Of a stretch of 64,000 bases of DNA, positions 9,057 to 53,285 are shown piece after piece. The position numbers were made by a program, and so were the translations under genes. Source of the DNA: Aquisphaera giovannonii. GTDB taxonomy: Bacteria; Planctomycetota; Planctomycetia; Isosphaerales; Isosphaeraceae. The notes under the pieces were generated by a model, which did no database searches, was not told the DNA's origin, and was given only the letters and a program-made list of their open reading frames with translations. Location: contig NZ_CP042997.1 of assembly GCF_008087625.1 (NCBI RefSeq), positions 5,642,001-5,706,000 of the forward strand, in the 5' to 3' direction. Numbering within the stretch: position 1 is the stretch's first letter; every line of letters starts with the position of its first letter.

Positions 9057-11666
9057 TCACCTCGGGTCGGGCGGGCGGGATGGGCCCGCGGGCTCCGGCT
9101 CCGCGTGCACCTCGATGCCCCCGTCGCTCGCGGGGAGGAGCCGGATCCGCAGCCGGCTGCCGGGCTCGATCCGGATCTCCGCCTCGACCGCGACCCGGGA
9201 GCCGGCGAGCACGCGCAGGCGATACGCCCCCGGGGCCAGGGCGCGGGACCACGGCCGTTCCGTCTCGCCGGGCGTCGTCCAGGCGAGGAGGCCGTCGTCG
9301 ACCGGCGTGCCGTCCGGCCGGAGGAGCTCGCAGACCGGGCCGGCGGCGACGGCGGCCCGCAGGCTGCCGATCAGCGCCCCGAGGTCCTCCGGGGCGGCGA
9401 AGGTACCCGGCGGATCGAGCCGGGCCAGGGGGGCCTGGAAATCCCGCCTGGCGCGTTCCCGCTCCGAGGGGTTGGTGCCCACGTCCAGGTACACCATGTG
9501 GATCCGGATGCCCAGGTCCCGGAATCTGGACCGCAGGAACGCGCCGACGTCCTGCCCGGCCGACTCCCTGAGGCGGGCGCCCTCGCCGTCGGTGAGGACC
9601 AGCATCTTGCGAGGGCGAGGCGCGTCCGTCAGGTCCGACATCGCGGCCTGCCGCATCGTCTCGAGCAGCGGGGCCTGGGAGGAGGGGCCCTGGCGCTCGA
9701 GCGCGGCGAGGAGCCGGCCGGCCTCCGACGCCCGCCATCGAGCGGGGGGGTAGATGCGGGTGATCGACCGCTCCGGGCCGCCGACGGCGGGATCGCCCGC
9801 GTGCGGGGCGGGCCCGCGCGACCCCTCCCCGAACGTCCAGACGCTGACCAGCGTCCCCTCGGGCACGCCCGCCGCGAGCACCCGGGCGAAGGCCTCCCTG
9901 ACCTGGAGGAGCCGGGAGCCCTGCCGGCCCGTCCTCCTCATGCTCCCGGACCAGTCCAGCACGATCGCCAGCGAGCCGGGGTCGGCCCTCAGCCGATCGA
10001 TGACCTCGGGGGCGACCTGCACCGCGATCTCCACGGGCGTCGCGAGGGGGGACTGGGCCGGCGGAGGCGGGGCCTTCGCGGCGGCGGGCGGATTGGAGGC
10101 GCCGGCCTCGCCGATCGGTCTCGTCGTCCGGGGCCGGTACGACGTCAGGGACATCAGGATGAGGGCCGAGGCGACGACCGCAGCCCCCGCGACGGCGATC
10201 CGCCGGAGTGACGCCCCGACGCCGGGGCCCTCGCGGGCCGACGCCCGCGGGGCGGCCCACGAGAGGTCCTCGCGGCGCGGGCGGTTCCCCTGCTTGAGGG
10301 AGCGGTCCGTCCCCCAGGACCGGCGGCCCGCCCGGGCCCCTTCGCGCTCGTCCTCGATGGCGTCGTCCGGGCGCGCCAGCCACGACCGCAGCGCGTCGGC
10401 GACGTCGCGGGCCGAGGCGTAGCGGTCGGCCGGCTCCTTGCTGAGGCATCGCCGGCAGATCCGATCCAGGGCCGGCGGGACGTCCGGGCGGAGCTCGCCC
10501 GGCGATCGCGCGGGGGCGTCGGAGATGAGGCTCGCCAGCACGTGCGTGAGCGATTCGCCCTCGATCGGCGGCCTGCCGGTCAGGAGCGCGAAGAGGATCC
10601 CGCCCAGGCCGTAGACGTCGGTCCTCGGCGTGATCGGCCCCCGCCTCGGGTCGGCCTGCTCCGGGCTCATGTAGTGCGGCGTGCCGAGGATCCGGTCGGC
10701 CGAGGTGAGGGGGTGGTCCGGGTCGGCCTCGTCGAACACCTTGGCCAGGCCGAAGTCGGTGATGTGCGGCTCCCCGTCCTCGTCGAGCAGCACGTTGGAG
10801 GGCTTCAGGTCGCGGTGCACGACGCCCCGGCCGTGGGCGTGCTCGATGGTCTCGGCGATGCTGGCGACGAGCGTGGCGGCGAGCCGCGGCTCGACCGGGC
10901 CGTCCTCGAGTCGCGTCGCGAGGGTCTTACCCCCGGCGACCAGGTCCATGGCGAGGAAATGGCAGCCGTCGGCCGCCCGGCCGATGCCGTGGACGCCGAC
11001 GATCCGCGGGTGGCGGAGCCGCGCCAGGGCGCGGGCCTCGGCGACGAACCGGCGGACGCGACCCGGCGACGCGAGCGCCTCGCGGTGCATCCGCTTCACG
11101 GCGACGCGGCGGCGGAGGCTCTTCTGGACCGCCTCGAACACCTCGCCCATGCCCCCCTCGCCCAGGCGGGCGCGGAGCTCGTAGTCCGACTCGTGGAGCG
11201 GCGCGTCGGCCTCGGCGACGGCGGCATCCCCCGCCGCGCCGGGCGCGTCCGCGCCCGTCGACGGGCCGGGGCCGGCCGCCTCGGTGCTATCCGACGGGCC
11301 GGGGCCGGCGTCCGAGAAGGGATCGGTCGGGGGGGGCCGCCCGGGGTCGTCGCCGGGCCAGGTGCCCGCCTCGGACCGGGCGAGGATCTCGGCCGCCAGC
11401 GTGGGGAAGCGCGCGGCGAGGGCGGCGGGGTCCGCCGGCTCCCCTCGCTCGCGGAGGGCCAGGGCCTCGGCCCGGACCAGCTCGAGCATCAGGCCGGCGT
11501 CGTCGCCGAGGGAGGGTTCGGCGGCCAGGTAGTCCTCGACCCGGCGCGGGGCGCCGGCCCGCCATCGGCGGCGGAGGTCCCGCGGCAGGGCCTCGAGCCG
11601 ATCCCCGCGGGAGTCCGATCGTCGCTCGTCCGGGGAGTCCGTCCGCGGGTGATCGGGCTCGGCCAT
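9057..11666 (-). CDS. Membrane Ser/Thr protein kinase with extracytoplasmic VWA domain
   Basis: 869 residues. A Hanks-type kinase spans about 162-430: glycine loop LGEGGMGEVF, VAVK lysine, HRDLKPSN, DFG, and APE-equivalent SPE. A basic/Pro-rich linker leads to one membrane helix (about 489-510). The outer part is a von Willebrand A domain (about 565-760) with MIDAS motif DWSGSM (571-576), then a beta-rich tail. All kinase catalytic residues are present. The layout suggests a receptor kinase whose outer VWA domain binds a metal-dependent ligand. GGGGGAG lies 7 nt before the ATG at 11666. The upstream gene encodes a small basic protein on the same strand (61 bp gap), possibly co-transcribed. 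Confidence 0.93.
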   Translation of the reverse strand: MAEPDHPRTDSPDERRSDSRGDRLEALPRDLRRRWRAGAPRRVEDYLAAEPSLGDDAGLMLELVRAEALALRERGEPADPAALAARFPTLAAEILARSEAGTWPGDDPGRPPPTDPFSDAGPGPSDSTEAAGPGPSTGADAPGAAGDAAVAEADAPLHESDYELRARLGEGGMGEVFEAVQKSLRRRVAVKRMHREALASPGRVRRFVAEARALARLRHPRIVGVHGIGRAADGCHFLAMDLVAGGKTLATRLEDGPVEPRLAATLVASIAETIEHAHGRGVVHRDLKPSNVLLDEDGEPHITDFGLAKVFDEADPDHPLTSADRILGTPHYMSPEQADPRRGPITPRTDVYGLGGILFALLTGRPPIEGESLTHVLASLISDAPARSPGELRPDVPPALDRICRRCLSKEPADRYASARDVADALRSWLARPDDAIEDEREGARAGRRSWGTDRSLKQGNRPRREDLSWAAPRASAREGPGVGASLRRIAVAGAAVVASALILMSLTSYRPRTTRPIGEAGASNPPAAAKAPPPPAQSPLATPVEIAVQVAPEVIDRLRADPGSLAIVLDWSGSMRRTGRQGSRLLQVREAFARVLAAGVPEGTLVSVWTFGEGSRGPAPHAGDPAVGGPERSITRIYPPARWRASEAGRLLAALERQGPSSQAPLLETMRQAAMSDLTDAPRPRKMLVLTDGEGARLRESAGQDVGAFLRSRFRDLGIRIHMVYLDVGTNPSERERARRDFQAPLARLDPPGTFAAPEDLGALIGSLRAAVAAGPVCELLRPDGTPVDDGLLAWTTPGETERPWSRALAPGAYRLRVLAGSRVAVEAEIRIEPGSRLRIRLLPASDGGIEVHAEPEPAGPSRPPDPR

Positions 11667-12154: not shown

Positions 12155-14806
<2,652 letters not shown>

Positions 14807-15137
14807 GATCACTATCTCCGAACTTCCAAGAGTCGTCCAAACACGGATCGGGATGGGAGATCTCGATCGGTGGCGCGCACGGGGGAGCCGTGTGGCATGG
14901 GCCCGATCGCACGTGCGGGGCCCGCTCCGAAATCCTTCCTGAGTACGTCCCGTCCGTGGGGGGCGGCGGCACCGTCGTGGTGGCTTCGCCGCTCATCGCG
15001 TCGTTCCTCGGCTTCCGACCTCAGCCAAGCTTTTTCCCGATTAGACACCAGGATCCGGGCCCGCGAAAGGGCCTAGGGGGGATTTCTCGGGCCGATTCTC
15101 CGGCCGACGCGGGCGTCGCGTCGGGCCCGGCCGGGCG
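14807..15137. other. Intergenic, upstream of hppA
   Basis: 331 bases between the hppA start and the hairpin after the VWA gene. It must hold the hppA promoter (minus strand), but I see no convincing -35/-10 pair. No coding frame is convincing. Confidence 0.4.
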
Positions 15138-15176
15138 GGGCGCGGCGGGGCCCGCGGGGGCCTCCCCGCCGCGCCC
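15138..15176 (-). terminator. Strong hairpin after the VWA gene
   Basis: Perfect 13-bp inverted repeat GGGCGCGGCGGGG / CCCCGCCGCGCCC (15138-15150 and 15164-15176, 13-nt loop), starting 9 bp past the stop of the VWA gene. It lacks a T-run, so it is either an atypical terminator or a 3' end stabiliser for the envelope operon. Confidence 0.55.
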
Positions 15177-15184
15177 GCGGCGCC

Positions 15185-16348
15185 TCAGAAGCCGCCGGCC
15201 GACTTGGGGAAATTCATCACGTCGATGTACCGATACGTCCCGCCCGTCGTCGTCGCCAGGCGGCGGAGCGGCGTCCCGCCCCCCAGGTCGCTCCCCCGGC
15301 CGAATTCCACCGCCTGGATCCGGACGCCCCCGGCCAGGGGCAGGATCCGGTCCACGTCGGTGTTGGTCATCTGGTCGGCGTCGGTGAGGAAGAAGATGAC
15401 CTCCGGCTTGAGCCCCAGGGCCGTGCGGAGGGCCAGCATGTGGTCGGTCCCGCCGTCGGGGCCGACCGTCCGGAGCTGCGCCTCGACCCGCCCCTTGTTC
15501 CGCGTCGTCGCCGGCATCATCCCCTGCTGGCCCGACGGATCCGCCAGGATCCGCACCTTCAGGTTGTAGAAGACCACGGCGAACCGCGCGTCCGGGGGCA
15601 GCGGGTTCAGGCTGCTCATCAGCTCCCGCTTGGCCACCCCGAGCGAGTCCCTGGCGACCATGCTTCCGGAACAATCGATCACGTAGGCGAATGAGTGCGC
15701 GTTCTCGCGGGCGCCGAAGAACTCGGTCCCCGGGCCGGTGCCCCGCCCGACGCCGCCGCCGGAGCCGCCCCCCGACCCGCCCCCGCCGCCGGTGCCGGGG
15801 CCCGGGGTCAGGCCGATGCCCGTGGTCTGCGGGCCGGGCAGGGCGCGCTCGAGGTCCCGGGGCGCCCTGTCCGGGAGGATCTCGTTGATCAGGGCGTCGG
15901 CCGCGGGGTCCGGGCCGGGCCCGCGGGGGTCGCTGCCGGCGGCCGGGGCGCGGAACTCCACGCTGCCGAGGCCGCCGACCTCGCCCGGCGAGCCTCCGCC
16001 GGTCCCCGGCACGCGGCCCTGGTCGGCCCTCGTGTCCGCCGGCCCGATGTCCCCGCGCAGCGGGGCGGGCCGCTCCGCCTCCCGCGGCATCGCCGCGTGC
16101 AGCACCGTCAGCGACGCCGCCAGCACGATCAGCAGGTGCACCAGCGCCGACGAGCCGAGCGAGCGGGGGTCGGTGAGCGGGGTCTCGCCGAAGCCCGCGC
16201 GCGGCGGCTCGGCCGGGCCCTCCCGGCCGGCGGCCCCGCGCCCGTCGCGGCCCTCATGGGCCCGGCCGCGGGGCGGAGACTCCTCGTCGGACTCGAACGA
16301 GAACCTGATCTGCATCACGGGGTCAGCGCCCCGGGGATGTCGGCTCAT
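15185..16348 (-). CDS. VWA-domain envelope protein of the ExbBD-type cluster
   Basis: 387 residues. A short cytoplasmic N-terminus is followed by one hydrophobic helix (SSALVHLLIVLAASLTVLHA, about 66-85), a long Gly/Pro-rich periplasmic linker, and a C-terminal VWA domain with an intact MIDAS (YVIDCSGSM) and the TDADQ acidic loop. The overall layout recalls TonB/TolA-like bitopic proteins but with a VWA head. It is the last gene of the cluster and overlaps the OB-fold gene by 26 bp. The ATG at 16348 has GGAG 7 nt upstream; a second ATG at 16315 (MQIRFSF) lies just after the upstream stop and is an alternative. It is probably moved or energised by the ExbB/ExbD-like proteins encoded upstream (inference). 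Confidence 0.85.
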   Translation of the reverse strand: MSRHPRGADPVMQIRFSFESDEESPPRGRAHEGRDGRGAAGREGPAEPPRAGFGETPLTDPRSLGSSALVHLLIVLAASLTVLHAAMPREAERPAPLRGDIGPADTRADQGRVPGTGGGSPGEVGGLGSVEFRAPAAGSDPRGPGPDPAADALINEILPDRAPRDLERALPGPQTTGIGLTPGPGTGGGGGSGGGSGGGVGRGTGPGTEFFGARENAHSFAYVIDCSGSMVARDSLGVAKRELMSSLNPLPPDARFAVVFYNLKVRILADPSGQQGMMPATTRNKGRVEAQLRTVGPDGGTDHMLALRTALGLKPEVIFFLTDADQMTNTDVDRILPLAGGVRIQAVEFGRGSDLGGGTPLRRLATTTGGTYRYIDVMNFPKSAGGF

Positions 16349-17090
16349 CGCGTCGCTCCGTGTCCAGGAATTCCGGCGGGGCGTCGGCCCCGCTCGGGGC
16401 GTGCCGGGCCGCGGGCCGGGCCCCCGCCCCCGGCGCCCGCAGGTGCCTCCAGGCCAGCGCCCCGGCGGCGGCCAGCCCCAGCGCCGCGGCCGCCGCCCAC
16501 GCCGCCGGCGACGGCGAGAGGGGCCACGGGTCGCCCGAGGCCCCGGGGGGCCTCGCCCCCGCGGGCTCGCCCCCGGCCGCCGGCGGCCGATCCCCGACGA
16601 CCAGCGGCGCCAGCCTCGCCTGGTCGCCCGCCTCGTAGCGGATGATCTTCATGAATCGGCCATCGAAGCGCACCGGCGTGCCGATTTGGGGGATGCGTGC
16701 GGGCGGGCCGCCCTCCGGACGCGTCGGGCAATGGGCGCAGATCAGGTCCCCGGCCGGGGTGCTCAGCCAGACCTCCGCCATCGCGGGGAAGCTGCCGACG
16801 GCGTCCTGGCGGAAGACGCGCGCGACCCGCCCCCTCACCTCCACGCGCCGGCCGCGCCAGGCCTCGGGATGGTCCCACAGGTCCCGGAACGAGGCGGGGG
16901 CCGGGCCGGGCCCCTCCGCGCCCCCTCGGCCCGTGAGCGCCGCGTGATAGCCCGGCAGGTCGGCCAGGCCGACCCGGGACTCGACGTCGTCGCGCGGGGC
17001 GTCGGGCTGGTCGGCCGACCGGGCCTGCGCGGCGAACGTCATCACGAAGAAGGCCGCGGCCCCGACGATCCACCTAACCCCCGAGTACAT
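16323..17090 (-). CDS. Exported protein with OB-fold-like domain and C-terminal membrane helix
   Basis: 255 residues. A signal peptide (MYSGVRWIVGAAAFFVMTFA, cleavage near AQA-RS) is followed by a beta-rich region about 80-165: WRGRRVEVRGRVARVFRQ, then AEVWLSTPAGDLICAHC, then GTPVRFDGRFMKII. This pattern matches OB-fold domains that bind ligands or nucleic acid. A Cys pair (CAHC) lies inside it. A hydrophobic helix (about 198-214) and an Arg/Pro-rich tail close the protein. The ATG at 17090 is fixed by the signal peptide. It is encoded between the ExbD pair and the VWA gene, overlapping the latter, so the two are likely partners at the membrane. Function unknown. Confidence 0.75.
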   Translation of the reverse strand: MYSGVRWIVGAAAFFVMTFAAQARSADQPDAPRDDVESRVGLADLPGYHAALTGRGGAEGPGPAPASFRDLWDHPEAWRGRRVEVRGRVARVFRQDAVGSFPAMAEVWLSTPAGDLICAHCPTRPEGGPPARIPQIGTPVRFDGRFMKIIRYEAGDQARLAPLVVGDRPPAAGGEPAGARPPGASGDPWPLSPSPAAWAAAAALGLAAAGALAWRHLRAPGAGARPAARHAPSGADAPPEFLDTERRDEPTSPGR

Positions 17091-17103
17091 CCGGGCCTTA
17101 CTG

Positions 17104-17277
17104 TCCCCTCCCCCCTGGTGGGGGAGGGTTAGGGAGAGGGGGACTCGCGAGCCTCCGATCGCGGACCCGACCGGTGATGAGCATGAGCGCTCGCCTGGCC
17201 CGCTCAAGGTCAGTTTGCATGTCCGGGGCGGTAGCCCCCTCTCCCCAACCCTCTCCCACGGTGGGGGTAGGGGACCG
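17104..17277. repeat. Two type A palindromic GC repeats (REP-like)
   Basis: Copies at about 17104-17142 and 17234-17277 share a core of C-run, GGTGG, G-run (CCCTCCC...GGTGGGGG). They fill most of the 308-bp gap between the OB-fold gene and the second exbD-like gene. The same core recurs near 28327, 53112 and 53242. They may act as mRNA processing or termination sites between the two halves of the cluster. Confidence 0.7.
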
Positions 17278-17398
17278 GATGGCTGGCCCTGCGTCGAGGG
17301 GAGGTCGTCCGTCCCAGCCGACCTCTCCTCCCGGCTCGCCCTAGCTCGCGGTGAAGGGGGGAGACGGAGCGATGAAGCCTCGCCGATCGCGCGCCCGC

Positions 17399-18010
17399 TC
17401 ATCGCGGCCCTCCCCGCCCCGCGCCGGCGGGCATCGTGGCCCCGGGCTGGGCCAGGCGGATCGAGGAGACCCCGGAGGCGGAGCAGGTGGCGACGATGCG
17501 GGCGGCCGGCTCGTAGCGGAGGCGGTCGTCGGCCACGAGGCGGACGCGGAGCGGCCGGCCGTTGAGCAGGCCGGTGTAGCGGGTCAGGCGGTCCCCCAGG
17601 GCGGCCAGGTCGGGCAGGGGCGCGTCGCCGAGCTTCAGCGCCTTCAGGTCGCCGAGGTCGTCGGCCTCGGCCCGGATCAGGAGGTCGTTCTCCAGGTCCG
17701 CGTCCACGGAGCGGACGGCGCCGGGCCGGGCCCGGCCCTCGGGCGCCGCGGGGAGCGCCGCGGGCGTGGCCGGCAGGTGGAGGTCGATGTGGGTCTCCGC
17801 CGACGGGGCCTTGAACGTCAGGACGAAGAACGCCAGCAGCTGGAAGGCCATGTCGAGCATCGGCGCGACGGGGAACATGACCTCCTCCGGCGGGCCGGGC
17901 CGGTACCGCCGGCCCGCGCGCGCCTCCTCGGCCGCCGCGGCCGGGTCGATCGTGGCCCCGCGGCCCTCCGGCGTGGACGGGGGCGACTCCGGGCCGAGGC
18001 TCATGCTCAT
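17399..18010 (-). CDS. ExbD/TolR-family biopolymer transport protein (second copy)
   Basis: 203 residues. A cytoplasmic N-terminal arm is followed by the single ExbD/TolR helix [19 protein letters not shown] (about 48-66) containing the Asp expected to carry protons, then a periplasmic domain. In Ton and Tol systems this protein couples the proton gradient to movement of a periplasm-spanning partner with the help of ExbB/TolQ. The N-terminal arm is unusually long (about 45 residues). The start overlaps the stop of the preceding exbD-like gene as ATGA (18007-18010). The periplasmic part is longer than in classical ExbD and may contact the OB-fold or VWA proteins encoded next. Confidence 0.88.
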
Positions 18011-18501
18011 CGCGGCTCCCTCCGGAGGACGACCAGGCTGAACTGCGCGAAGCCCCGCTCCTGGGCCTCGGCCAGGGTGCGGCGGACGGCGCCGTACGAC
18101 GCGTCACGGTCGGCCCGCAGGATCACGACGGTCGGCAGCTCGTCGCTCCCAAGGCCGGACGACGCGCCTCCGCCCTGGAGCAGCTCGAGGCCCGACCGCC
18201 GCGCCCGGGCCTGCTCGTCCCACCAGGCGGCGGCCTCGGCGGCATCGAGCGAGCGGTCCCCGACGCGCAGGCCGCCTCGGCGGTCCAGCGACACCGGCAG
18301 GCGGTCGATCGTCAGGTCCGAGCCCGGCAGCGCGGCGGGGGCCACGGGCAGGCGGACTCCGCGGTCGGCCCCCTCCAGGCGGGTGCCGAAGTGGACGAGC
18401 ATCATGAAGAACGTGATGAGCTGCAGCACGATGTCCAGCAGCGGCGTCAGGTTCGGGCTGATCGCATCCGACGACCGCGTCCGCCTTCTCGAGCTCGGCA
18501 T
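18007..18501 (-). CDS. ExbD/TolR-family biopolymer transport protein (first copy)
   Basis: 164 residues with a short basic N-terminus ([12 protein letters not shown]), the ExbD helix [20 protein letters not shown] with its proton-carrying Asp, and a compact periplasmic domain ending in the ExbD-like strand order ([19 protein letters not shown]). ATG 18501 is chosen because GGAGGGG lies about 6 nt upstream; the frame continues to a GTG at 18519. It overlaps the next exbD-like gene by 4 nt. Two different ExbD proteins with one ExbB is a known arrangement in gliding and uptake systems, where they form heteromeric stators. Confidence 0.9.
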
Positions 18502-18563
18502 GGCCAGCCCCTCCGGCACGCCTCGGGGTCCTCACGTCGCGCGGGGCGCGGCACGCCCCGGCC

Positions 18564-19565
18564 TCACTCGCCCTCGGGGGGCGCGGGGGGCAGGGCGGTG
18601 CGCGGGGCGCCCGCGCCGGCCGCCGCCGCCAGGGCCGCGCTGGCGGCGTAGGGGTGCGGGTGCGCCGAGGGCCCGGCGCCGGGCATCGGCACGGGGACCG
18701 TCACCGTCGGCTGCGGCGGGGCGGCGTCCTGCGGGCGGACGCCCGGCGCGAACCGCTCGAGCATCGGCTCGGCGGCCAGGGCCACCTCGAGCGACAGCCG
18801 GGCGATCCGGTTCCGGAACATCGAGTAGAAGTAGATCGCCGGGATCGAGATCGCGATCCCCTCCAGCGTCGCGAAGAGCGCCGTGGAGATCCCCGCGGCG
18901 AGCTGGCTCGCCTGCGGCGAGGAGCCCTCGGTGGCGATGACGCGGAAGGACATGATCATGCCGTAGACCGTGCCCACCAGGCCGATCATCGGCCCGAGCG
19001 TCCCCACGGTCGCCAGGTACGTCGTGCGGTGCTCCATCTCCATCGTGGCGTCCTCGTTGGCCATCTCCATGGCCCGCTGCGCCGGGGCCATGCCGGCCGG
19101 CAGCTTGCGGACGCCCGCGGCCAGCACCCGGCCCAGGAGCGACTCGCTGGCGGCGGCCCGGTGGTAGGCCTCGCTGAACTTCCTCTCCTCGAGCAGTTCG
19201 TCCACCTCGCGGGCGAGGGCCCGCGGGATCGCCACGCTGGTCCGGTAGTTCAGGGCCATCCAGGCGACCAGCGCGATGAGGTAGAACGACATCGCCAGGA
19301 TCACCAGCCCGATCGGCCCGGACGCCCGGATCGCCCAGGAGAGCATCGACCCCTGGCCCTCGGGCCGCGACGCGGCGGCGCCCTCGTCGCCCCCCGAAGG
19401 CGGCGCGTCCACCCCGGCCGTGGCCGGCGCCTGGCCCGGCCCCTGGGCGACGGCCCCGGGGCTCGCCAGCGAGGCGGCGATCAGGATCGCGACCAGGATC
19501 GGCGGGAGGACCCCCGGCCGCCCCGCGGCCCCGCCCCGCCACCACGGGCCCCTACGGCACGCCAT
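18564..19565 (-). CDS. MotA/TolQ/ExbB-family proton channel protein
   Basis: Inner-membrane stator subunit. An N-terminal signal-like helix (LPPILVAILIAASLASPGA) and a Pro/Gly spacer precede the ExbB core: one helix (GPIGLVILAMSFYLIALVAW), a long cytoplasmic loop, and the conserved pair of helices TVGTLGPMIGLVGTVYGMI and GISTALFATLEGIAISIPAI. The C-terminus is Pro/Ala-rich. It heads a minus-strand cluster with two ExbD-like genes, an OB-fold gene and a VWA gene. The start is uncertain: ATG 19565 is used, but GAGGAGG lies at a better distance for GTG 19574 or 19571. The extra N-terminal segment is common in planctomycete members. Confidence 0.9.
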   Translation of the reverse strand: MACRRGPWWRGGAAGRPGVLPPILVAILIAASLASPGAVAQGPGQAPATAGVDAPPSGGDEGAAASRPEGQGSMLSWAIRASGPIGLVILAMSFYLIALVAWMALNYRTSVAIPRALAREVDELLEERKFSEAYHRAAASESLLGRVLAAGVRKLPAGMAPAQRAMEMANEDATMEMEHRTTYLATVGTLGPMIGLVGTVYGMIMSFRVIATEGSSPQASQLAAGISTALFATLEGIAISIPAIYFYSMFRNRIARLSLEVALAAEPMLERFAPGVRPQDAAPPQPTVTVPVPMPGAGPSAHPHPYAASAALAAAAGAGAPRTALPPAPPEGE

Positions 19566-20056
19566 CTCCACCACCGCCACCTCCTCGCCCCGATGCCGCC
19601 CCGGCCGCACGGTCCCCGCACGCAAGTCCCGTTCCCGCCAGGACTCGTGCCGGATCCGCCCTCCGGATCAGGTTACCCAATCGTACCGACGCGGACAACG
19701 CGAGCCGGAAGGGCCCTTCTCCTCCCGGAGGCTGGGCCCGCGGGGCTTGGCCCCCGCAGGCGTGCATCGCGAGCCGGCTTACTTCTGCTATAGCGGCGTC
19801 CCGCGGCTCGTTGTCCATGCCGCGATTGCGACCGCGGCATCGGCGTCGGCCGGGGGTCTGCCTACGCAGTCATGAATCATGCGTGCTTTCGCGGCCGCCC
19901 GTCATGCCCGGGTTGATAGGCCTTTGGTCGCGTGATGGGCCCGATGCCATGCCGGGGCCGTCCTCGCCCTTCGCGTCCCGGCCCTTCGCGGAGGCGCGGC
20001 CGGCGGGCGTCCCATCCCGCACCTTCGGTTCGAGCCAGTGAACTCCACCTCGCCCC
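19566..20056. other. Divergent intergenic region between exbB-like gene and uvrA
   Basis: No convincing gene. It should contain the promoter for the exbB-like cluster (minus strand), not identified. The uvrA promoter candidate lies just to the right. Confidence 0.4.
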
Positions 20057-20084
20057 TGGACAATCCACCGGACACGCGTATACT
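20057..20084 (+). promoter_or_regulatory. Candidate uvrA promoter
   Basis: TGGACA at 20057-20062, a 16-nt spacer and TATACT at 20079-20084 form a good sigma70-type promoter, giving a leader of about 55 nt before the uvrA ATG. No obvious SOS (LexA) box overlaps it. Confidence 0.6.
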
Positions 20085-20144
20085 ACCACTTCTCGCGCGC
20101 ATCGGCACGCAGGCGGCCGGCAACTAGGGAGGGGCATTCCAGGG

Positions 20145-23100
20145 ATGGCGACATCCGACATCGTGATCCGCGGTGCGCGGGAGCATAACCTGCGGGACGT
20201 CTCGCTCACCCTGCCGCGAGGGCGGCTGATCTGCCTGACGGGGGTCAGCGGGTCGGGGAAGAGCTCGCTGGCGTTCGACACGCTGTACGCCGAGGGGCAG
20301 CGGCGGTACGTGGAGAGCCTCTCCAGCTACGCCCGGCAGTTCCTCGGCCAGATGCCCAAGCCGGAGGTGGACCGGATCGACGGGCTCTCGCCGTCGATCT
20401 CGATCCAGCAGAAGACGGGCGGCCGGAACCCGCGATCGACCGTGGGCACGATCACGGAGATCAACGACTACCTCCGCGTCCTCTTCGCCCGGGTGGGGCA
20501 GGGGCATTGCCCGAAGTGCGACCGGCCGGTGGCCGCCCAGACCCGCGAGCAGATCGTCGCCAGGATCCTCTCGCTGCCCGCGGGTACGGCGTTCAGCGTG
20601 CTCGCCCCGGTCGTGCGGGGCCAGAAGGGCGAGTACAAGGACCTCTTCACCGACCTGGCGAAGGCCGGCTACGTCCGGGCCCGGGTCAACGGGACGGTGC
20701 ACTCGCTGTCGGACCAGCTCGCGCTGGACCGGCAGATCAAGCACAACATCGAGGTCGTCATCGACCGCCTCAAGGCCGGGCCGAGCGTCCGCGGCCGGCT
20801 CTCGGAGGCCGTGGAGCAGGCGCTCAAGCTCGGCGAGGGGACGGTGATCGTCGCCGCCGAGGGGCAGCCGGACCTGCTGCTCTCCTCGGCCTACGCCTGC
20901 ACGCATTGCGGCCTGAGCTTCGACCCGCCCAGCCCGCAGCTCTTCAGCTTCAACAGCCCGCAGGGGATGTGCCCGGCCTGCGACGGCCTGGGCATCCGCC
21001 ACGGCTTCGACCCCGACCTCCTGGTCCCCAACCCGAAGCTCTCGGTCTGGGACGGGGCGATCAGCCTCCTCGGGCCGGTCAAGGGGATCGGCCGCTGGCG
21101 CAGGCACCTGTTCGAGGGCGTCGCCGCCAACTACGAGAGCGACCCCGACGGCCCGCCCAAGGGGACGATGCTCAAGGGCCCGTGGAAGGACCTGGACGAG
21201 CGGTTCCGCAAGGTCTGGCTGTACGGCTCCGGCGACCGGGTGATCGTCCACCACTGGAAGAGCCGGTCGAAGGTCTGGTCGCACGCCGAGCCCTGGGAGG
21301 GGGTGGCGACGGAGCTCCTGGCCCGCTACCGCAAGTCCCACGGCGGGCCGACGAAGGCCCAGCTCGAGCCGTACATGCGTAGCGTCACCTGCCCGGAGTG
21401 CCACGGCAACCGGCTGAACGCCCGGGCCCGGGCCGTCCGCGTCGGCGGCAAGACCCTCGTCGAGCTCGGCGCCATGCCCATCAGCGAGGCCGCCCGCTTC
21501 TTCGACGCCCTCGCCGAGGGGGCGGCGGCAGAGGCCAAGCCCCCCGGGGCCGCCCCCGGTAAGGCGGGGGCCGAAGATCGTGCTCTCCCCCTTGCGAAGG
21601 GGGAGTCGGAGGGGGTTCCGGAGCCGAGCGGCAAGGCGAGCGAGGGGAGCCCCAACGGTCAGCTTGCGGCCGCCGCGCCGGCGATCCCGCTCGACGCGGT
21701 CTCGCGGACGATCGCCGAGGAGCTGCTCAAGGAGATCCGCGGCCGGCTCCGGTTCCTCACGAACGTCGGCCTGCACTACCTGGCGCTCGACCGCGCCGCG
21801 CCGACGCTCTCCGGCGGCGAGGCCCAGCGGATCCGCCTGGCCAGCCAGGTCGGCGCGGGGCTCGTGGGGGTGCTCTACATCCTGGACGAGCCCTCGATCG
21901 GGCTGCACCCGCGGGACAACGACCGGCTGATCGCGACGCTCCAGCGGCTCCGCGACGTGGGCAACACCGTGATCGTCGTCGAGCACGACGAGGACACGAT
22001 GCGGGCCGCCGACTGGCTCGTGGACTTCGGCCCCGGCCCCGGCGTGAAGGGGGGCGAGGTCGTCGCGCAGGGGACGCTCGCCGACCTGTCGAAGGCCAAG
22101 GACAGCCTGACCGGCGCGTACCTCTCGGGCAAGGCGGAGATCCTGATCCCGGCCGACCGCAAGGCGCCGGACGGCCGATCCCTGACGATCAAGGGGGCCC
22201 GCCAGAACAACCTCAAGAATGTCGATGTGAAGATCCCGCTCGGCCTCTTCGCCGTCGTCACCGGCGTGAGCGGGTCGGGCAAGAGCTCGCTCGTCGGCGA
22301 CATCCTCCGCGACGCCCTCGCCCGCGACCTCAACGGCGCCGAGACCACGCCCGGCGCGCACGACGCGATCGAGGGCGTGGACCAGCTCGACAAGGTCATC
22401 GACATCGACCAGTCGCCGATCGGCCGGACGCCGCGGTCCAACCCGTCCACGTACACGAAGCTCTTCGACCAGATCCGCGACCTGTACACGAAGCTGCCGG
22501 AGGCCCGCGCCCGGGGCTACCAGCCGGGCCGGTTCAGCTTCAACGTCCCCGGCGGCCGCTGCGAGGCCTGCGAGGGGAACGGCTCGAACAAGCTGGAGAT
22601 GGACTTCCTCGCCGACGTCTGGGTGACCTGCCCGGTCTGCGAGGGGAAGCGGTTCAACCGCGAGACCCTCCACGTCCGGTTCAAGGGCAAGAGCATCGCC
22701 GACGTCCTGGACATGGACGTGCAGGAGGCGCTGGAGCACTTCTCCAACGTCCCCAAGATCGCGGCGATGCTGAAGACCCTGCACGACGTGGGCCTCGACT
22801 ACATCAAGCTCGGCCAGCCCTCGCCGACGCTCTCCGGCGGCGAGGCCCAGCGCATCAAGCTCGCCCGCGAGCTCGTGAAGCGGGGCACCGGCAAGACGCT
22901 GTACATCCTGGACGAGCCGACCACGGGCCTGCACTTCGAGGACGTCAAGAAGCTCCTGGAGGTCCTCCACAACTTCAAGCGGTCGGGCAACACGGTCGTC
23001 GTCATCGAGCACAACCTGGACGTCATCAAGACGGCCGACTGGCTCATCGACATGGGCCCCGAGGGGGGCGCCGGCGGCGGCCGGGTCGTCGCCGAGGGGA

Positions 23101-26100
23101 CGCCGGAGGACGTCGCCAAGGTCGCCGCCAGCCACACCGGCGCGGCACTCCAGCGGATCCTCCACCCCGACCACGACCGGCACGTCGGCCGGGCCGCGAA
23201 GCCCGCCGCGAAGAGGCGGGGCAGGGGGGCGTCGTCCGAGGAGGGGCTCGACGCGATCGCCGTCCGGGGGGCCCGGCAGCACAACCTCAAGGGGATCGAC
23301 GTGGACATCCCCCGCCACAAGATGACGGTGTGCAGCGGCCCGTCCGGGTCGGGGAAGAGCTCGCTGGCGATCGACACGCTGTACGCCGAGGGCCAGAGGC
23401 GGTACGTGGAGAGCCTCTCCAGCTACGCCCGGCAGTTCCTGGCCCCGCTCCAGAAGCCGAAGGTGGAGCACATCAGCGGGCTCTCCCCGGCGATCAGCAT
23501 CGAGCAGAAGACGACCAGCAAGAGCCCCCGCTCGACGGTCGGCACGGTGACGGAGATCCACGACTACCTCCGCATCCTCATGGCGAGGCTCGGCCAGCCC
23601 CACTGCCCCTCGTGCGGCACCCCGATCGGGACGCAGACGGCCGACGAGATCGTCGAGAAGATCCTCCACCTGCCGGAGGGGACGAAGGTCTTCATCATGG
23701 CCCCCGTCGAGCGCCGGGACGGCGAGGCCTACGAGGCGCTCTGGGACGACCTGCGGGCCTCGGGCTTCGCCCGCGTCCGCGTCGACGGCAAGTCGGTGGA
23801 CCTGGACAAGCCGCCGAAGCTCAGCCACCGCCGCAAGCACCGCGTGGAGGTCGTCATCGACCGCGCGGTCGTGCGCCGGTCCACCCGCTCGCGGCTGGCC
23901 GACTCGGTGGAGTCGGCCCTGGACCTGGGCAAGGGCGTGCTCCACGTCGCGAAGGTCGGCGACGAGGACAAGGAGGCGCACTGGCACGTCGAGCGGTTCA
24001 GCCAGCACCGCTCGTGCGACCGCTGCGGACGCAGCTTCGAGGAGCTCTCGCCGCACAACTTCTCCTTCAACAGCCCGCTCGGCTGGTGCCCCGTCTGCGA
24101 AGGGCTGGGCACGCAGCACGGCGCCAACCCGGCGGTCCTGATCCCGGACCCCCGCCGCAGCCTGCGCGAGGGGGCCGTGGACGTCTGGCCGAAATTCGAC
24201 GAGAACCCCGCGTTCGCCCGGATCGTGGCGGCGATCGCGGACGCCGAGGGGATCGACCTGGACATGCCCTTCGATGACCTGGAGGGCCGCCTGCGGCGGA
24301 TCATCCTCCACGGCGCGGGGGAGACCTGGTACGCGGTCCCGCCGGATGAGGAGGCGGGCTTGCCCGGGTTCTCGGTCCAGTACAAGGGCCTCTTCCCGGC
24401 CATCGAGGAGGCGTCGCGGGTCTCGTTCGTCTACCGGTGGAAGCTCCAGGGGATGGTGGACGACGTCCCCTGCGCCGCGTGCATGGGGGGCCGGCTCCGC
24501 GACGACTCCGGCGCCGTGCGGTTCCACGGCCACACGATCGACCAGATCAGCCGCTGGCCGCTCGGCCAGACGCTGGCCTTCTTCCAGGGCCTGAAGCTCG
24601 GCAAGGACGAGACGCACATCGCCGGGGACCTCGTCCGCGAGATCCGCGACCGGCTCACGTTCCTCGTGGACGTCGGGCTCGACTACCTGAGCCTGGCGCG
24701 CGGGACGCCGACGCTCTCCGGCGGCGAGAGCCAGCGGATCCGCCTGGCCAGCCAGATCGGCAGCGGGCTCACGGGCGTGCTGTACGTCCTGGACGAGCCG
24801 ACGATCGGCCTGCACCCGCGGGACAACGCCCGGCTGTTGAAGGCGCTCAAGCACCTCCGCGACCTGGGCAACACGCTGGTCCTCGTCGAGCACGACCGCG
24901 AGATCATCGAGGCGGCGGACAACCTCGTGGACTTCGGGCCCGGCTCCGGCGCGTTCGGCGGCGAGGTGACCGCGGCCGGGCCGCCGTCGAAGGTGAAGGC
25001 GGCGTCGAAGTCGCTCACGGGCAAGTACCTGAGCGGCAAGTCGGCGATCCCGGTCCCGACGAACCGCCGGCCCGCCTCGGCGGAGGCGGACGGCCCGGCG
25101 ATCGTGATCCGGGGGGCCCGGCAGAACAACCTCAAGGACATCGACGTGCGGATCCCGCTGGGCGTGGTCACGGCGGTGACCGGCGTCAGCGGGTCGGGCA
25201 AGAGCTCGCTCGTCGAGGACATCCTCTGGAAGGCCGCCGCCAAGCAGCTCCACCGCGCCCAGCTCACGCCCGGGGCGCACGAGTCGATCGAGGGGCTGGA
25301 GCGGGTGGACAAGGTCATCAGCGTCGACCAGACGCCGCTCGGCTCGACGCCCAACTCCACGCCCGCCACGTACTCGGGCGTCTTCGACCTGATCCGCGAG
25401 CTCTTCGCCAAGATGCCGGAGGCCAAGGTCCGCGGCTACACCTCGCGGCGGTTCAGCTTCAACATGGCCGGCGGGCGCTGCGAGACCTGCGAGGGCGCCG
25501 GGCAGAAGCGGATCGAGATGCACTTCCTGCCCGACGTCTGGATCACCTGCGACGCCTGCAACGGGGCGCGGTTCACGCCCGAGGTCCTCGCCGTCAAGTT
25601 CCACGGCAAGACGATCGCGGACGTCCTGGACATGACGGTGGACCAGGCGCTCGACCTGTTCTCCGGCGTGCCGCGGATCCGCAAGATCCTCCAGACGCTG
25701 CACGACGTCGGCCTCGGCTACATCCCGCTCGGCCAGTCCGCGCCGACGCTCTCCGGCGGCGAGGCCCAGCGCGTGAAGCTGGCGGCGGAACTGGCCCGGC
25801 CGGACACGGGCAAGACGCTCTACATCCTGGACGAGCCGACCACCGGCCTGCACCTGGACGACATCCGGAAGCTCCTGGACGTGATCCACCGCCTGGCCGA
25901 CCTGGGCAACACGGTGGTCGTCATCGAGCACAACCTCGAGGTCATCAAGACGGCCGACTGGCTCCTCGACCTCGGCCCCGAGGCCGGGCTCAAGGGGGGC
26001 GAGCTCGTCGCCGAGGGGACGCCCGAGGAGGTCTCGAAGGCCACTCGCAGCCAGACGGCCCGCTTCCTGGTGGACCTCCTCGCCGCCGGCCCGTTCGCCG

Positions 26101-26846
26101 AGCGCGAGCGGTTCGACCCCAAGGCCGCCGCGAAGAGGGCGATGGAGGAGGCGAAGGCCCTCCGCGAGGCCGCGAAGGCCGGGGCCGCCGGGGCTCCCGC
26201 CGCGGTCGCGTCCGGTTCGTCGAAGGGCCGCAAGGGCTCACCCGGCAAGAACGGCCGGGCGAAGGCGACCGCCACGGCCGTCGCCGCCATCGCCCCCCAG
26301 CTCGACGCCCTCGCACCCTGGGAGCTCGACGGCCGGACCTGGCACACGAAGACCAGGACGGCCCGCAACGGCAAGCCCGCCCGCTGGGACGGGGCGATCC
26401 TCGAGCAGGTCGTGGACCGGATCGAGGAGCTGGCCGGCGACCGGCTCGCCCCGACCGCGTGGTCGGAGCGGGGCGTCGTCCGGATCGAGGCCCCGACCCG
26501 CGACCGCGACAAGAAGCGCCCGTTCCCGTTCTTCCACGCCACGACGTCCGCCGAGTGGGTCGTGACGCTCCGGTTCTTCGTCGCCCGCAACACCTTCCAG
26601 GCGAAGACGCTGGAGTCGCAGCTCAGCCTCCCGCCGTTCCACGAGTGCTCCCCGCCCGTCCACAGCGACGCGCCCCGCCTGAAGGTGGAGCTCGAGGGCT
26701 CGTACCAGGTCATCACCCTGACCGCACACTCCACCGACGGCCTCGACACGCCGGCCTTCCGCGGCTTCCTCGACAAGGCCGTGGCCGCCGCCCTCGCGGA
26801 ATCCACGGGGAAAAAGGGGAAGTTGAAGAAGGCCAGCGAACTATGA
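20145..26846 (+). CDS. uvrA: Tandem-fused UvrA (two complete UvrA copies plus novel C-terminal domain)
   Basis: 2,233-residue DNA damage-recognition ATPase of nucleotide excision repair. Two full UvrA units are joined head to tail: about 1-1005 and 1033-1985, linked by a basic segment. Each unit has two Walker A motifs (GVSGSGKSS, GPSGSGKSS and equivalents), two ABC signatures (LSGGEAQRIRLA, LSGGEAQRIKLA, LSGGESQRIRLA, LSGGEAQRVKLA) and CxxC zinc modules, so all four ATP sites look intact. A single chain therefore holds what is normally a UvrA dimer. Fused UvrA proteins are known in Chlamydia and planctomycetes. After an Ala/Lys-rich linker, residues about 2049-2233 form an extra domain I do not recognise. 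About 45 extra residues near 470-515 contain a palindromic repeat (21585-21605). The GTG-free start at ATG 20145 follows GGGAGGGG. Confidence 0.97.
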   Translation: MATSDIVIRGAREHNLRDVSLTLPRGRLICLTGVSGSGKSSLAFDTLYAEGQRRYVESLSSYARQFLGQMPKPEVDRIDGLSPSISIQQKTGGRNPRSTVGTITEINDYLRVLFARVGQGHCPKCDRPVAAQTREQIVARILSLPAGTAFSVLAPVVRGQKGEYKDLFTDLAKAGYVRARVNGTVHSLSDQLALDRQIKHNIEVVIDRLKAGPSVRGRLSEAVEQALKLGEGTVIVAAEGQPDLLLSSAYACTHCGLSFDPPSPQLFSFNSPQGMCPACDGLGIRHGFDPDLLVPNPKLSVWDGAISLLGPVKGIGRWRRHLFEGVAANYESDPDGPPKGTMLKGPWKDLDERFRKVWLYGSGDRVIVHHWKSRSKVWSHAEPWEGVATELLARYRKSHGGPTKAQLEPYMRSVTCPECHGNRLNARARAVRVGGKTLVELGAMPISEAARFFDALAEGAAAEAKPPGAAPGKAGAEDRALPLAKGESEGVPEPSGKASEGSPNGQLAAAAPAIPLDAVSRTIAEELLKEIRGRLRFLTNVGLHYLALDRAAPTLSGGEAQRIRLASQVGAGLVGVLYILDEPSIGLHPRDNDRLIATLQRLRDVGNTVIVVEHDEDTMRAADWLVDFGPGPGVKGGEVVAQGTLADLSKAKDSLTGAYLSGKAEILIPADRKAPDGRSLTIKGARQNNLKNVDVKIPLGLFAVVTGVSGSGKSSLVGDILRDALARDLNGAETTPGAHDAIEGVDQLDKVIDIDQSPIGRTPRSNPSTYTKLFDQIRDLYTKLPEARARGYQPGRFSFNVPGGRCEACEGNGSNKLEMDFLADVWVTCPVCEGKRFNRETLHVRFKGKSIADVLDMDVQEALEHFSNVPKIAAMLKTLHDVGLDYIKLGQPSPTLSGGEAQRIKLARELVKRGTGKTLYILDEPTTGLHFEDVKKLLEVLHNFKRSGNTVVVIEHNLDVIKTADWLIDMGPEGGAGGGRVVAEGTPEDVAKVAASHTGAALQRILHPDHDRHVGRAAKPAAKRRGRGASSEEGLDAIAVRGARQHNLKGIDVDIPRHKMTVCSGPSGSGKSSLAIDTLYAEGQRRYVESLSSYARQFLAPLQKPKVEHISGLSPAISIEQKTTSKSPRSTVGTVTEIHDYLRILMARLGQPHCPSCGTPIGTQTADEIVEKILHLPEGTKVFIMAPVERRDGEAYEALWDDLRASGFARVRVDGKSVDLDKPPKLSHRRKHRVEVVIDRAVVRRSTRSRLADSVESALDLGKGVLHVAKVGDEDKEAHWHVERFSQHRSCDRCGRSFEELSPHNFSFNSPLGWCPVCEGLGTQHGANPAVLIPDPRRSLREGAVDVWPKFDENPAFARIVAAIADAEGIDLDMPFDDLEGRLRRIILHGAGETWYAVPPDEEAGLPGFSVQYKGLFPAIEEASRVSFVYRWKLQGMVDDVPCAACMGGRLRDDSGAVRFHGHTIDQISRWPLGQTLAFFQGLKLGKDETHIAGDLVREIRDRLTFLVDVGLDYLSLARGTPTLSGGESQRIRLASQIGSGLTGVLYVLDEPTIGLHPRDNARLLKALKHLRDLGNTLVLVEHDREIIEAADNLVDFGPGSGAFGGEVTAAGPPSKVKAASKSLTGKYLSGKSAIPVPTNRRPASAEADGPAIVIRGARQNNLKDIDVRIPLGVVTAVTGVSGSGKSSLVEDILWKAAAKQLHRAQLTPGAHESIEGLERVDKVISVDQTPLGSTPNSTPATYSGVFDLIRELFAKMPEAKVRGYTSRRFSFNMAGGRCETCEGAGQKRIEMHFLPDVWITCDACNGARFTPEVLAVKFHGKTIADVLDMTVDQALDLFSGVPRIRKILQTLHDVGLGYIPLGQSAPTLSGGEAQRVKLAAELARPDTGKTLYILDEPTTGLHLDDIRKLLDVIHRLADLGNTVVVIEHNLEVIKTADWLLDLGPEAGLKGGELVAEGTPEEVSKATRSQTARFLVDLLAAGPFAERERFDPKAAAKRAMEEAKALREAAKAGAAGAPAAVASGSSKGRKGSPGKNGRAKATATAVAAIAPQLDALAPWELDGRTWHTKTRTARNGKPARWDGAILEQVVDRIEELAGDRLAPTAWSERGVVRIEAPTRDRDKKRPFPFFHATTSAEWVVTLRFFVARNTFQAKTLESQLSLPPFHECSPPVHSDAPRLKVELEGSYQVITLTAHSTDGLDTPAFRGFLDKAVAAALAESTGKKGKLKKASEL
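21585..21605. repeat. Palindromic GC repeat inside uvrA coding sequence
   Basis: Inverted repeat CTCCCCCTT-GCG-AAGGGGGAG (9-bp arms) followed by GGAGGGGGTTCCGG, related to the intergenic type B repeats at 37434 and 52986. It is translated in frame as part of a 45-residue segment absent from typical UvrA, located between the zinc-binding region and the first signature motif. Confidence 0.75.
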
Positions 26847-52795: not shown

Positions 52796-53285
52796 CCCTC
52801 TCCCTCGCCCGGTTGCGGGAGAGGGAGAGATCGGCTCGTCCCGCGAACGAAATCACGGGGCCTCCATGTCGCGTGCCGCGGGCCGACTTGCGGGTCATGA
52901 AGCCGGCGAGTAAGAGGATCGCGTAGGCCGGCCCTTCGCACCGACAACTTCCCCTGGCAAGGGCGAGGGAGGGCCGGATCCCATTCCCCCCTTACGAAGG
53001 GGGGATACAGGGGGGTGATCTCGATCGCCGCGGCCGGCCGAACGCACCCCCTCTCACTCCCCCTTTGGCAAGCTTATCTTTAGCCACGACTCGAGCCGAG
53101 CGGGCCTTCCGGTCCCCTCCCCCCACCGTGGGGGAGGGTCAGGGACAGGGGCAACCGCCTCCGACATGCGAAGGAGCCTCGGGATGGTCCGTGCGGGCCC
53201 GCTCCTGTTCACCGGCTCGCGAGGCATTCGAGGGCCCTTCGGACCCCCTCTCCCTAGCCCTCCCCCACGGTGGGGGGAGGGGACC
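52796..53285. repeat. Cluster of palindromic GC repeats (types A, B and C)
   Basis: Within about 500 bp lie a type C repeat at 52796-52829 (CTCTCCCTCGCCCGG-TTG-CGGGAGAGG), a type B at 52984-53030 (core CCCCCCTTACGAAGGGGGG) with a partner near 53045, and type A repeats at about 53112-53151 and 53242-53285. The stretch 52739-53755 has no convincing gene. It looks like an accumulation zone for these elements. Confidence 0.75.

Follow-up and report, generated by a model that had tools for sequence, protein, structure and literature searches.

A proton-motor operon with a VWA head and an OB-fold membrane protein in Isosphaeraceae, a probable trans-envelope force transducer

We analyzed a window of 64,000 nucleotides from the 10.5-Mb genome of the planctomycete Aquisphaera giovannonii (contig NZ_CP042997.1), the minus strand of which carries, at positions 15185 to 19565, five genes in the order ExbB-ExbD-ExbD-OB-VWA. 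This operon is probably a variant, found in Isosphaeraceae, of the proton motive force (PMF)-driven trans-envelope force transducers of the SHLS-vWA kind, and it would act independently of Ton and Tol. Our reading relies on the conservation of the five-gene block, the start-stop overlap between the second exbD gene (exbD2) and the OB gene, a Ser-x3-His motif in the membrane helix of the VWA protein, the pore residues of the motor, the metal ion-dependent adhesion site (MIDAS) of the VWA head, Ton and Tol markers that were searched for and not found, and published AlphaFold 3 (AF3) docking of related proteins. The idea of an arm bearing a vWA head is already in print: Williams-Jones et al. described SHLS-vWA force transducers in 2025, together with a tetratricopeptide repeat (TPR) protein, a TolQ-like protein, and two TolR-like proteins (PMC12204202). 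The OB partner, and the use of such a machine in bacteria where the searched Ton and Tol parts were not found, look new; our literature search turned up no earlier mention of the OB partner, of its coupling to exbD2, of the lack of a detected TPR gene in Isosphaeraceae, or of the motor relationship reported below.

Conservation of the five-gene block

A sequence-only reading of the window, made without database searches, had proposed an ExbB-ExbD-ExbD-OB-VWA cluster. All five minus-strand genes were recovered, with Pfam families assigned to ExbB, both ExbD proteins, and the VWA protein. The exbB/tolQ-like gene (18564-19565) encodes a proton-channel subunit of 333 amino acids with an N-terminal signal-like segment (MotA_ExbB, E = 5.8e-27). 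It is followed by the exbD/tolR-like genes for subunit 1 (18007-18519; ExbD/TolR, E = 3.5e-14) and subunit 2 (17399-18010; ExbD/TolR, E = 2.3e-10), which overlap by ATGA, as that reading had noticed. The full open frame of the OB-fold gene (16323-17402) begins at an ATGA overlap with the exbD2 stop, and the gene for the bitopic VWA protein (15185-16348), matched above cut-off by both Pfam VWA_3 and VWA_2, completes the block. A pattern scan of positions 15000 to 20200 for intrinsic terminators, which does not cover other signals, returned none.

The same reading had named conservation of the gene neighborhood as the way to check it, and the neighborhood is indeed kept among relatives. Our family set consisted of 25 Isosphaeraceae genomes, namely, the host and 24 relatives, and our wider set of 40 relatives, 15 of which lie outside the family. 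All five genes stand in a row in 11 of the 25 family genomes. Of the 20 family genomes with an OB ortholog at the locus, 19 have it immediately behind exbD2, and in 15 the VWA gene comes no more than 1.5 kb after OB. Full VWA orthologs are more widespread (23/25); one of the remaining genomes shows a fragment where a contig ends, and in the other, which is 74% complete, none was found. In two genomes where the block is split (G020 and G022), the VWA gene still lies by the gene for a membrane pyrophosphatase and the motor genes by uvrA, which are also its flanking genes in the host. Since these neighbors have been kept, the ancestral block was probably whole.

Motor residues and the VWA protein

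The pore residues of the motor are conserved. In ExbB, threonines T200 and T234, together with P243 in transmembrane helix 3 (TM3) and W103 in TM1 (P0005 numbering), are found in at least 90% of the aligned relatives, and so are the pore aspartates D29 of ExbD1 and D53 of ExbD2. The Escherichia coli ExbB row in our residue alignment was entered by hand; the window ExbB also aligns independently to solved ExbB/TolQ, and that alignment covers much of the region.

The AlphaFold2 model of the VWA protein has a disordered N terminus, a membrane helix (residues 61 to 86), a disordered Gly/Pro-rich linker holding one short helix (148 to 157), and a head (207 to 376) whose VWA fold is backed by a structural match with a Z score of 19.1 and a root mean square deviation (rmsd) of 1.8 over 153 residues. 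The MIDAS residues D225, S227, S229, T301, and D323 are identical in all 21 aligned rows. The single helix, Gly/Pro linker, and intact MIDAS described from the sequence alone are thus borne out. As for the alignments, A5 comprises 20 named loci, from which L106, L108, and L120 were omitted because of a stop codon in the stretch and others to keep the set small; A2 omits L010 and L020, the matches of which are interrupted by a stop.

TonB and TolA share a membrane helix motif, S-x3-H-x6-L-x3-S (SHLS), the first Ser and the His of which touch a Ser and a Trp of ExbB/TolQ TM1 (PMC12215075). The membrane helix of the window VWA protein carries S67-x3-H71, which supports the earlier suggestion of a TonB/TolA-like transducer with a different head, a protein that would pass on force. 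We scored 50 of the 56 named loci for the motif, leaving aside 5 without a match to the MIDAS pattern used and 1 that is truncated. Ser-x3-His is present in 44 of these 50 VWA proteins, both at the Isosphaeraceae level (27/32) and in the other proteins (17/18); for comparison, we found it in 3 when we scored 158 other membrane segments encoded at these loci. Of the five Isosphaeraceae-level exceptions, three have Ser-x3-Asn (the VWA proteins of L107, L109, and L112) and two Thr-x3-His. Asparagine reportedly substitutes fully for His20 of E. coli TonB, going by the title of a 2011 article by Swayne and Postle. Three VWA paralogues that are unlinked to exbB (L063 to L065) lack Ser-x3-His.

The OB-fold protein and the repeat insertion

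Searches of Pfam and NCBIfam gave no match for the OB protein, and a sequence search of its family against solved structures found nothing. Its AlphaFold2 model shows an N-terminal hydrophobic helix (residues 5 to 24) and an OB barrel at about 82 to 165 (predicted local distance difference test score of about 95), with a membrane helix (195 to 218) toward the C terminus. The best structural matches of the model are OB domains (Z score of 9.9, rmsd of 2.8, 96 residues); they are of generic kinds, such as those of tRNA synthetases, MCM, SSB, and RPA, and give no clue to the function of the protein. The exported OB-fold protein of the sequence-only reading is upheld in its fold, whereas its C-terminal membrane helix, present in 20/20 aligned OB relatives, had been overlooked. 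After this helix comes a tail with a Pro-rich motif ending in Phe (a loose pattern), seen in 18/20 rows of alignment A1 and 16/20 of alignment A3.

Upstream of the OB domain, a stretch of 308 bp (17091-17398) had been taken for a repeat-filled gap. We found it to be open in the OB frame from ATG 17402, the start codon that overlaps the exbD2 stop. This four-base overlap is present in the window and in 24 of the 25 distinct relatives that have this junction, L103 being the miss. With the frame open and the overlap conserved, the most fitting interpretation of the stretch is an insertion that keeps the OB frame and lies close to the 5' end of the gene, and we rejected the notion that it breaks the operon. 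The conserved overlap also suggests that exbD2 and OB may be translationally coupled. As to where translation of the functional protein starts, ATG 17090 is more likely than ATG 17402 because it gives a normal signal segment; the resulting protein of 255 amino acids would probably consist, according to its model, of a signal segment, a periplasmic OB domain, the C-terminal membrane helix, and a cytoplasmic tail. The insertion contains a repeat element (17105-17272) with G/C-rich inverted arms of 38 nucleotides (17105-17142 and 17235-17272) that are about 120 bp apart and lie in frame within the 5' part of the OB gene. A like pair of inverted arms recurs at 53128-53268, which makes two copies in the window compared with a mean of 0.00 in shuffled sequences.

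Ton and Tol markers and likeness to known systems

The operon resembles TolQ-TolR-TolA in joining a PMF motor to a bitopic transducer with Ser and His in its membrane helix. It differs from Tol-Pal in that a VWA head replaces the C-terminal domain of TolA, in having two unlike ExbD proteins, and in that a profile search detected TolB_N in 0 of the 40 relatives. With ExbB-ExbD-TonB it shares motor residues, a Ser-x3-His helix, and a flexible linker; in contrast to that system, neither TonB_C nor the plug domain of TonB receptors was detected in any of the 25 family genomes (4/40 and 7/40 relatives overall, respectively). In E. coli, Caulobacter, and Bacteroides, which served as controls, our marker searches detect the respective domains, although divergent TolB or TonB proteins could fall below the profiles. 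The remark in the sequence-only reading that no outer-membrane receptor gene lies nearby was thus an understatement, given that the plug domain was found neither in the host genome nor in its 24 family relatives. We accordingly rejected an identity with the TonB system, for want of TonB_C and plug domains in the family, and with Tol-Pal, for want of TolB_N. Tol-Pal has been described as largely reduced in Planctomycetes (PMC8871954). The cluster contains no gene for a Pal-type lipoprotein with an OmpA domain; OmpA-type domains are encoded outside it in 23/25 family genomes, so a peptidoglycan-binding partner is possible.

The closest likeness is to the SHLS-vWA system (PMC12204202). Both have a TolQ/ExbB-like protein with two unlike TolR/ExbD-like proteins encoded next to each other, and both have a bitopic protein composed of a membrane helix with Ser-x3-His, a disordered Pro/Gly linker, and a C-terminal vWA domain. 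Unlike the published system, the one in Isosphaeraceae comes with a membrane-anchored OB protein in the operon, without a TPR gene of that kind having been found, in the order ExbB-ExbD-ExbD-OB-VWA, and with a motor that groups with VWA-free, OB-linked motors. The same paper describes a second family, TolQ with paired TPH-vWA proteins, which likewise combines a TolQ-like motor with a vWA head; there, the vWA helix itself bears the pore aspartate and no TolR/ExbD protein is present, whereas here two ExbD proteins bear the aspartate and the vWA helix has Ser and His. Finally, membership of the MotA/TolQ/ExbB family, the pore threonines, and the ExbD pore aspartate are shared with the 5:2 ExbB-ExbD and TolQ-TolR motors.

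TPR genes, OB-linked clusters, and the phylogeny of the motors

Planctomycetes of other families have the gene order VWA-TPR-ExbB-ExbD, which is the set reported by Williams-Jones et al. (PMC12204202). An adjacent TPR gene is described there as frequent in the Planctomycetes-Verrucomicrobia-Chlamydiae superphylum but not as defining the system. A TPR-profile search of the 25 family genomes gave weak partial matches at most, the best one reaching an E of 1.3e-9 over about 100 of the 339 positions, and the profile matches strongly (E of 1e-30 or better) in 11 of the 15 relatives outside the family. In a phylum sample of 294 genomes, 19 match the TPR profile at an E of 1e-15, and 28 match the OB family.

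OB-linked motors also occur without a VWA gene. The host genome encodes a second ExbB-ExbD-ExbD-OB cluster (L083, 7165-10502; contig G000:C1, near position 7,975,000), where the 16 kb examined contain no VWA gene, and two more clusters of this type (L149 and L150) occur together in one genome from a different family. The L083 cluster lies upstream of a gene that resembles, by eye, one for a P-type ATPase. Some OB relatives (L146, L147, L151, L152, and L154) are encoded away from exbBD, which indicates that the OB family is wider than a role in the motor.

In the ExbB tree, 26 Isosphaeraceae motors of this operon type and 8 VWA-free, OB-linked motors form one branch with support of 99/93, or 100/97 once four long-branch rows are left out. 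This branch is separate from the VWA-TPR motors. In the VWA tree, the Isosphaeraceae and TPR-linked heads share one branch (95/97) with three additional VWA proteins; of the four second VWA proteins tested, three fall among these heads. Judging from these trees, there is moderate support for a motor exchange, the motor of the Isosphaeraceae VWA operon being closer to the VWA-free, OB-linked cluster than to the VWA-TPR motors.

Proposed mechanism and alternatives

In the mechanism that we propose, the proton motor would consist of ExbB, by analogy taken to be a pentamer, together with the two unlike ExbD subunits. The membrane helix of the VWA protein would dock through S67 and H71 on TM1 of ExbB in the manner of TonB and TolA; published AF3 models place related vWA proteins at the docking site used by TonB and TolA (PMC12204202). 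Proton flow would move the motor, and the Gly/Pro linker would transmit a pull or torque to the VWA head; this head may bind a ligand at the outer membrane, the peptidoglycan, or the surface via its metal-dependent MIDAS. The OB protein, presumably anchored in the inner membrane and with an OB domain predicted to lie in the periplasm near the ExbD heads, could serve as a motor accessory, be it stator, adaptor, or gate, and may take the place held by the TPR protein in other planctomycete families. As a first guess, the load would be envelope upkeep in place of Tol-Pal, and as a next one, motility or polymer uptake.

Several observations weigh against this scenario. Here, Ala occupies the position of the TM1 serine (Ser34) in ExbB. 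The Leu and the second Ser of SHLS are not conserved, with A78 and V82 in the window VWA protein, and the full motif is found in 1 of 43 proteins scanned. In this regard, the Leu and the second Ser are less conserved in Ton (PMC12215075), and SHLS is present in many, not all, vWA transducers (PMC12204202), so the full motif is not strictly defining. At the level of the locus, the VWA gene lies elsewhere in 5/20 OB-bearing family genomes and the motor genes do so in one, two genomes (G012 and G013) have motor genes without an OB ortholog beside them, and OB relatives outside Isosphaeraceae are often apart from exbBD. The trees add two further points. An approximately unbiased (AU) test did not reject a grouping of all VWA-linked ExbB proteins with all 65 rows (p = 0.219); it rejected it without the four long-branch rows (p = 0.025) and also when ExbB and ExbD were joined with these rows again left out (p = 0.0195). 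For the heads, a clade of the main and TPR-linked VWA proteins alone was rejected (p = 0.022).

Separation of the VWA gene from the motor, together with the VWA-free clusters of the host (L083) and of another family, is what would be expected if two modules merely shared an operon, ExbB-ExbD-ExbD-OB being one machine and the VWA protein acting alone or with another motor. Yet Ser-x3-His predicts contact with a motor, and the neighbors kept in G020 and G022 point to a block that was probably whole, which leaves this reading quite unlikely. Alternatively, the VWA head might sense a ligand and gate the ExbB-ExbD channel from the outside in, without acting mechanically on the outer membrane. Heads of the VWA/MIDAS type usually serve for binding, and the cluster has no gene for an outer-membrane partner, both of which suit a sensor. 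So does the proposal that the Ser-His network of TonB and TolA relays signals to the pore (PMC12215075). Against it, the motor keeps its pore residues and the long linker is suited to reach and pull; we consider signaling unlikely.

A third possibility overlaps with the force transducer that we favor and changes its load to surface motility or polymer uptake instead of envelope upkeep. A gliding role has been suggested for vWA transducers (PMC12204202), and the lack of detected TonB-receptor plugs in the family is compatible with it. However, no motility or uptake gene is linked to the operon, and a VWA ortholog in nearly every family genome suits a general task better, so that this load has some likelihood without being the favored one. 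Planctomycete genomes hold many exbB, exbD, and VWA genes, which could become neighbors by chance with no functional link; we rejected this explanation as highly improbable, considering that gene order, start-stop overlaps, and the motif are conserved over many Isosphaeraceae genera.

The trees allow a more specific scenario, which we put forward tentatively and rate at slightly less than an even chance: in Isosphaeraceae, the vWA transducer may have parted from its TPR-linked motor and joined another ExbB-ExbD-ExbD lineage, one that brought along the membrane-anchored OB accessory. In a family where Ton and Tol markers were not found, the hybrid would then be the principal connection to the outer envelope that runs on protons. 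This suggests that transducers and motors may be exchangeable in evolution; envelope force machines would then be modular. For the question of how planctomycetes energize and hold their outer membrane, the operon offers a concrete knock-out candidate, with an OB-fold membrane protein added as a likely partner of the motor. Mutations of H71 and the MIDAS residue D225 in the VWA protein and of D29 and D53 in the ExbD proteins would separate motor function from binding.

Neighboring genes

The next gene downstream of VWA (12155-14812, minus strand) was named by eye from its sequence as encoding a membrane pyrophosphatase, a possible proton pump next to a proton-using machine. It lies directly after VWA in 11/25 family genomes. 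We did not adopt it as a functional partner: only synteny speaks for it, and since uvrA is likewise kept on the other side in several relatives, the neighborhood may be plain synteny. The UvrA-like open frame of the window (20145-26846, plus strand; 2,233 codons), which adjoins exbB in those relatives, seems to join two copies of UvrA in a single chain. Further downstream (9057-11666, minus strand), the window encodes a protein that resembles, again by eye, a serine/threonine kinase and in which a membrane helix is followed by a sequence similar to VWA (DWSGSM).

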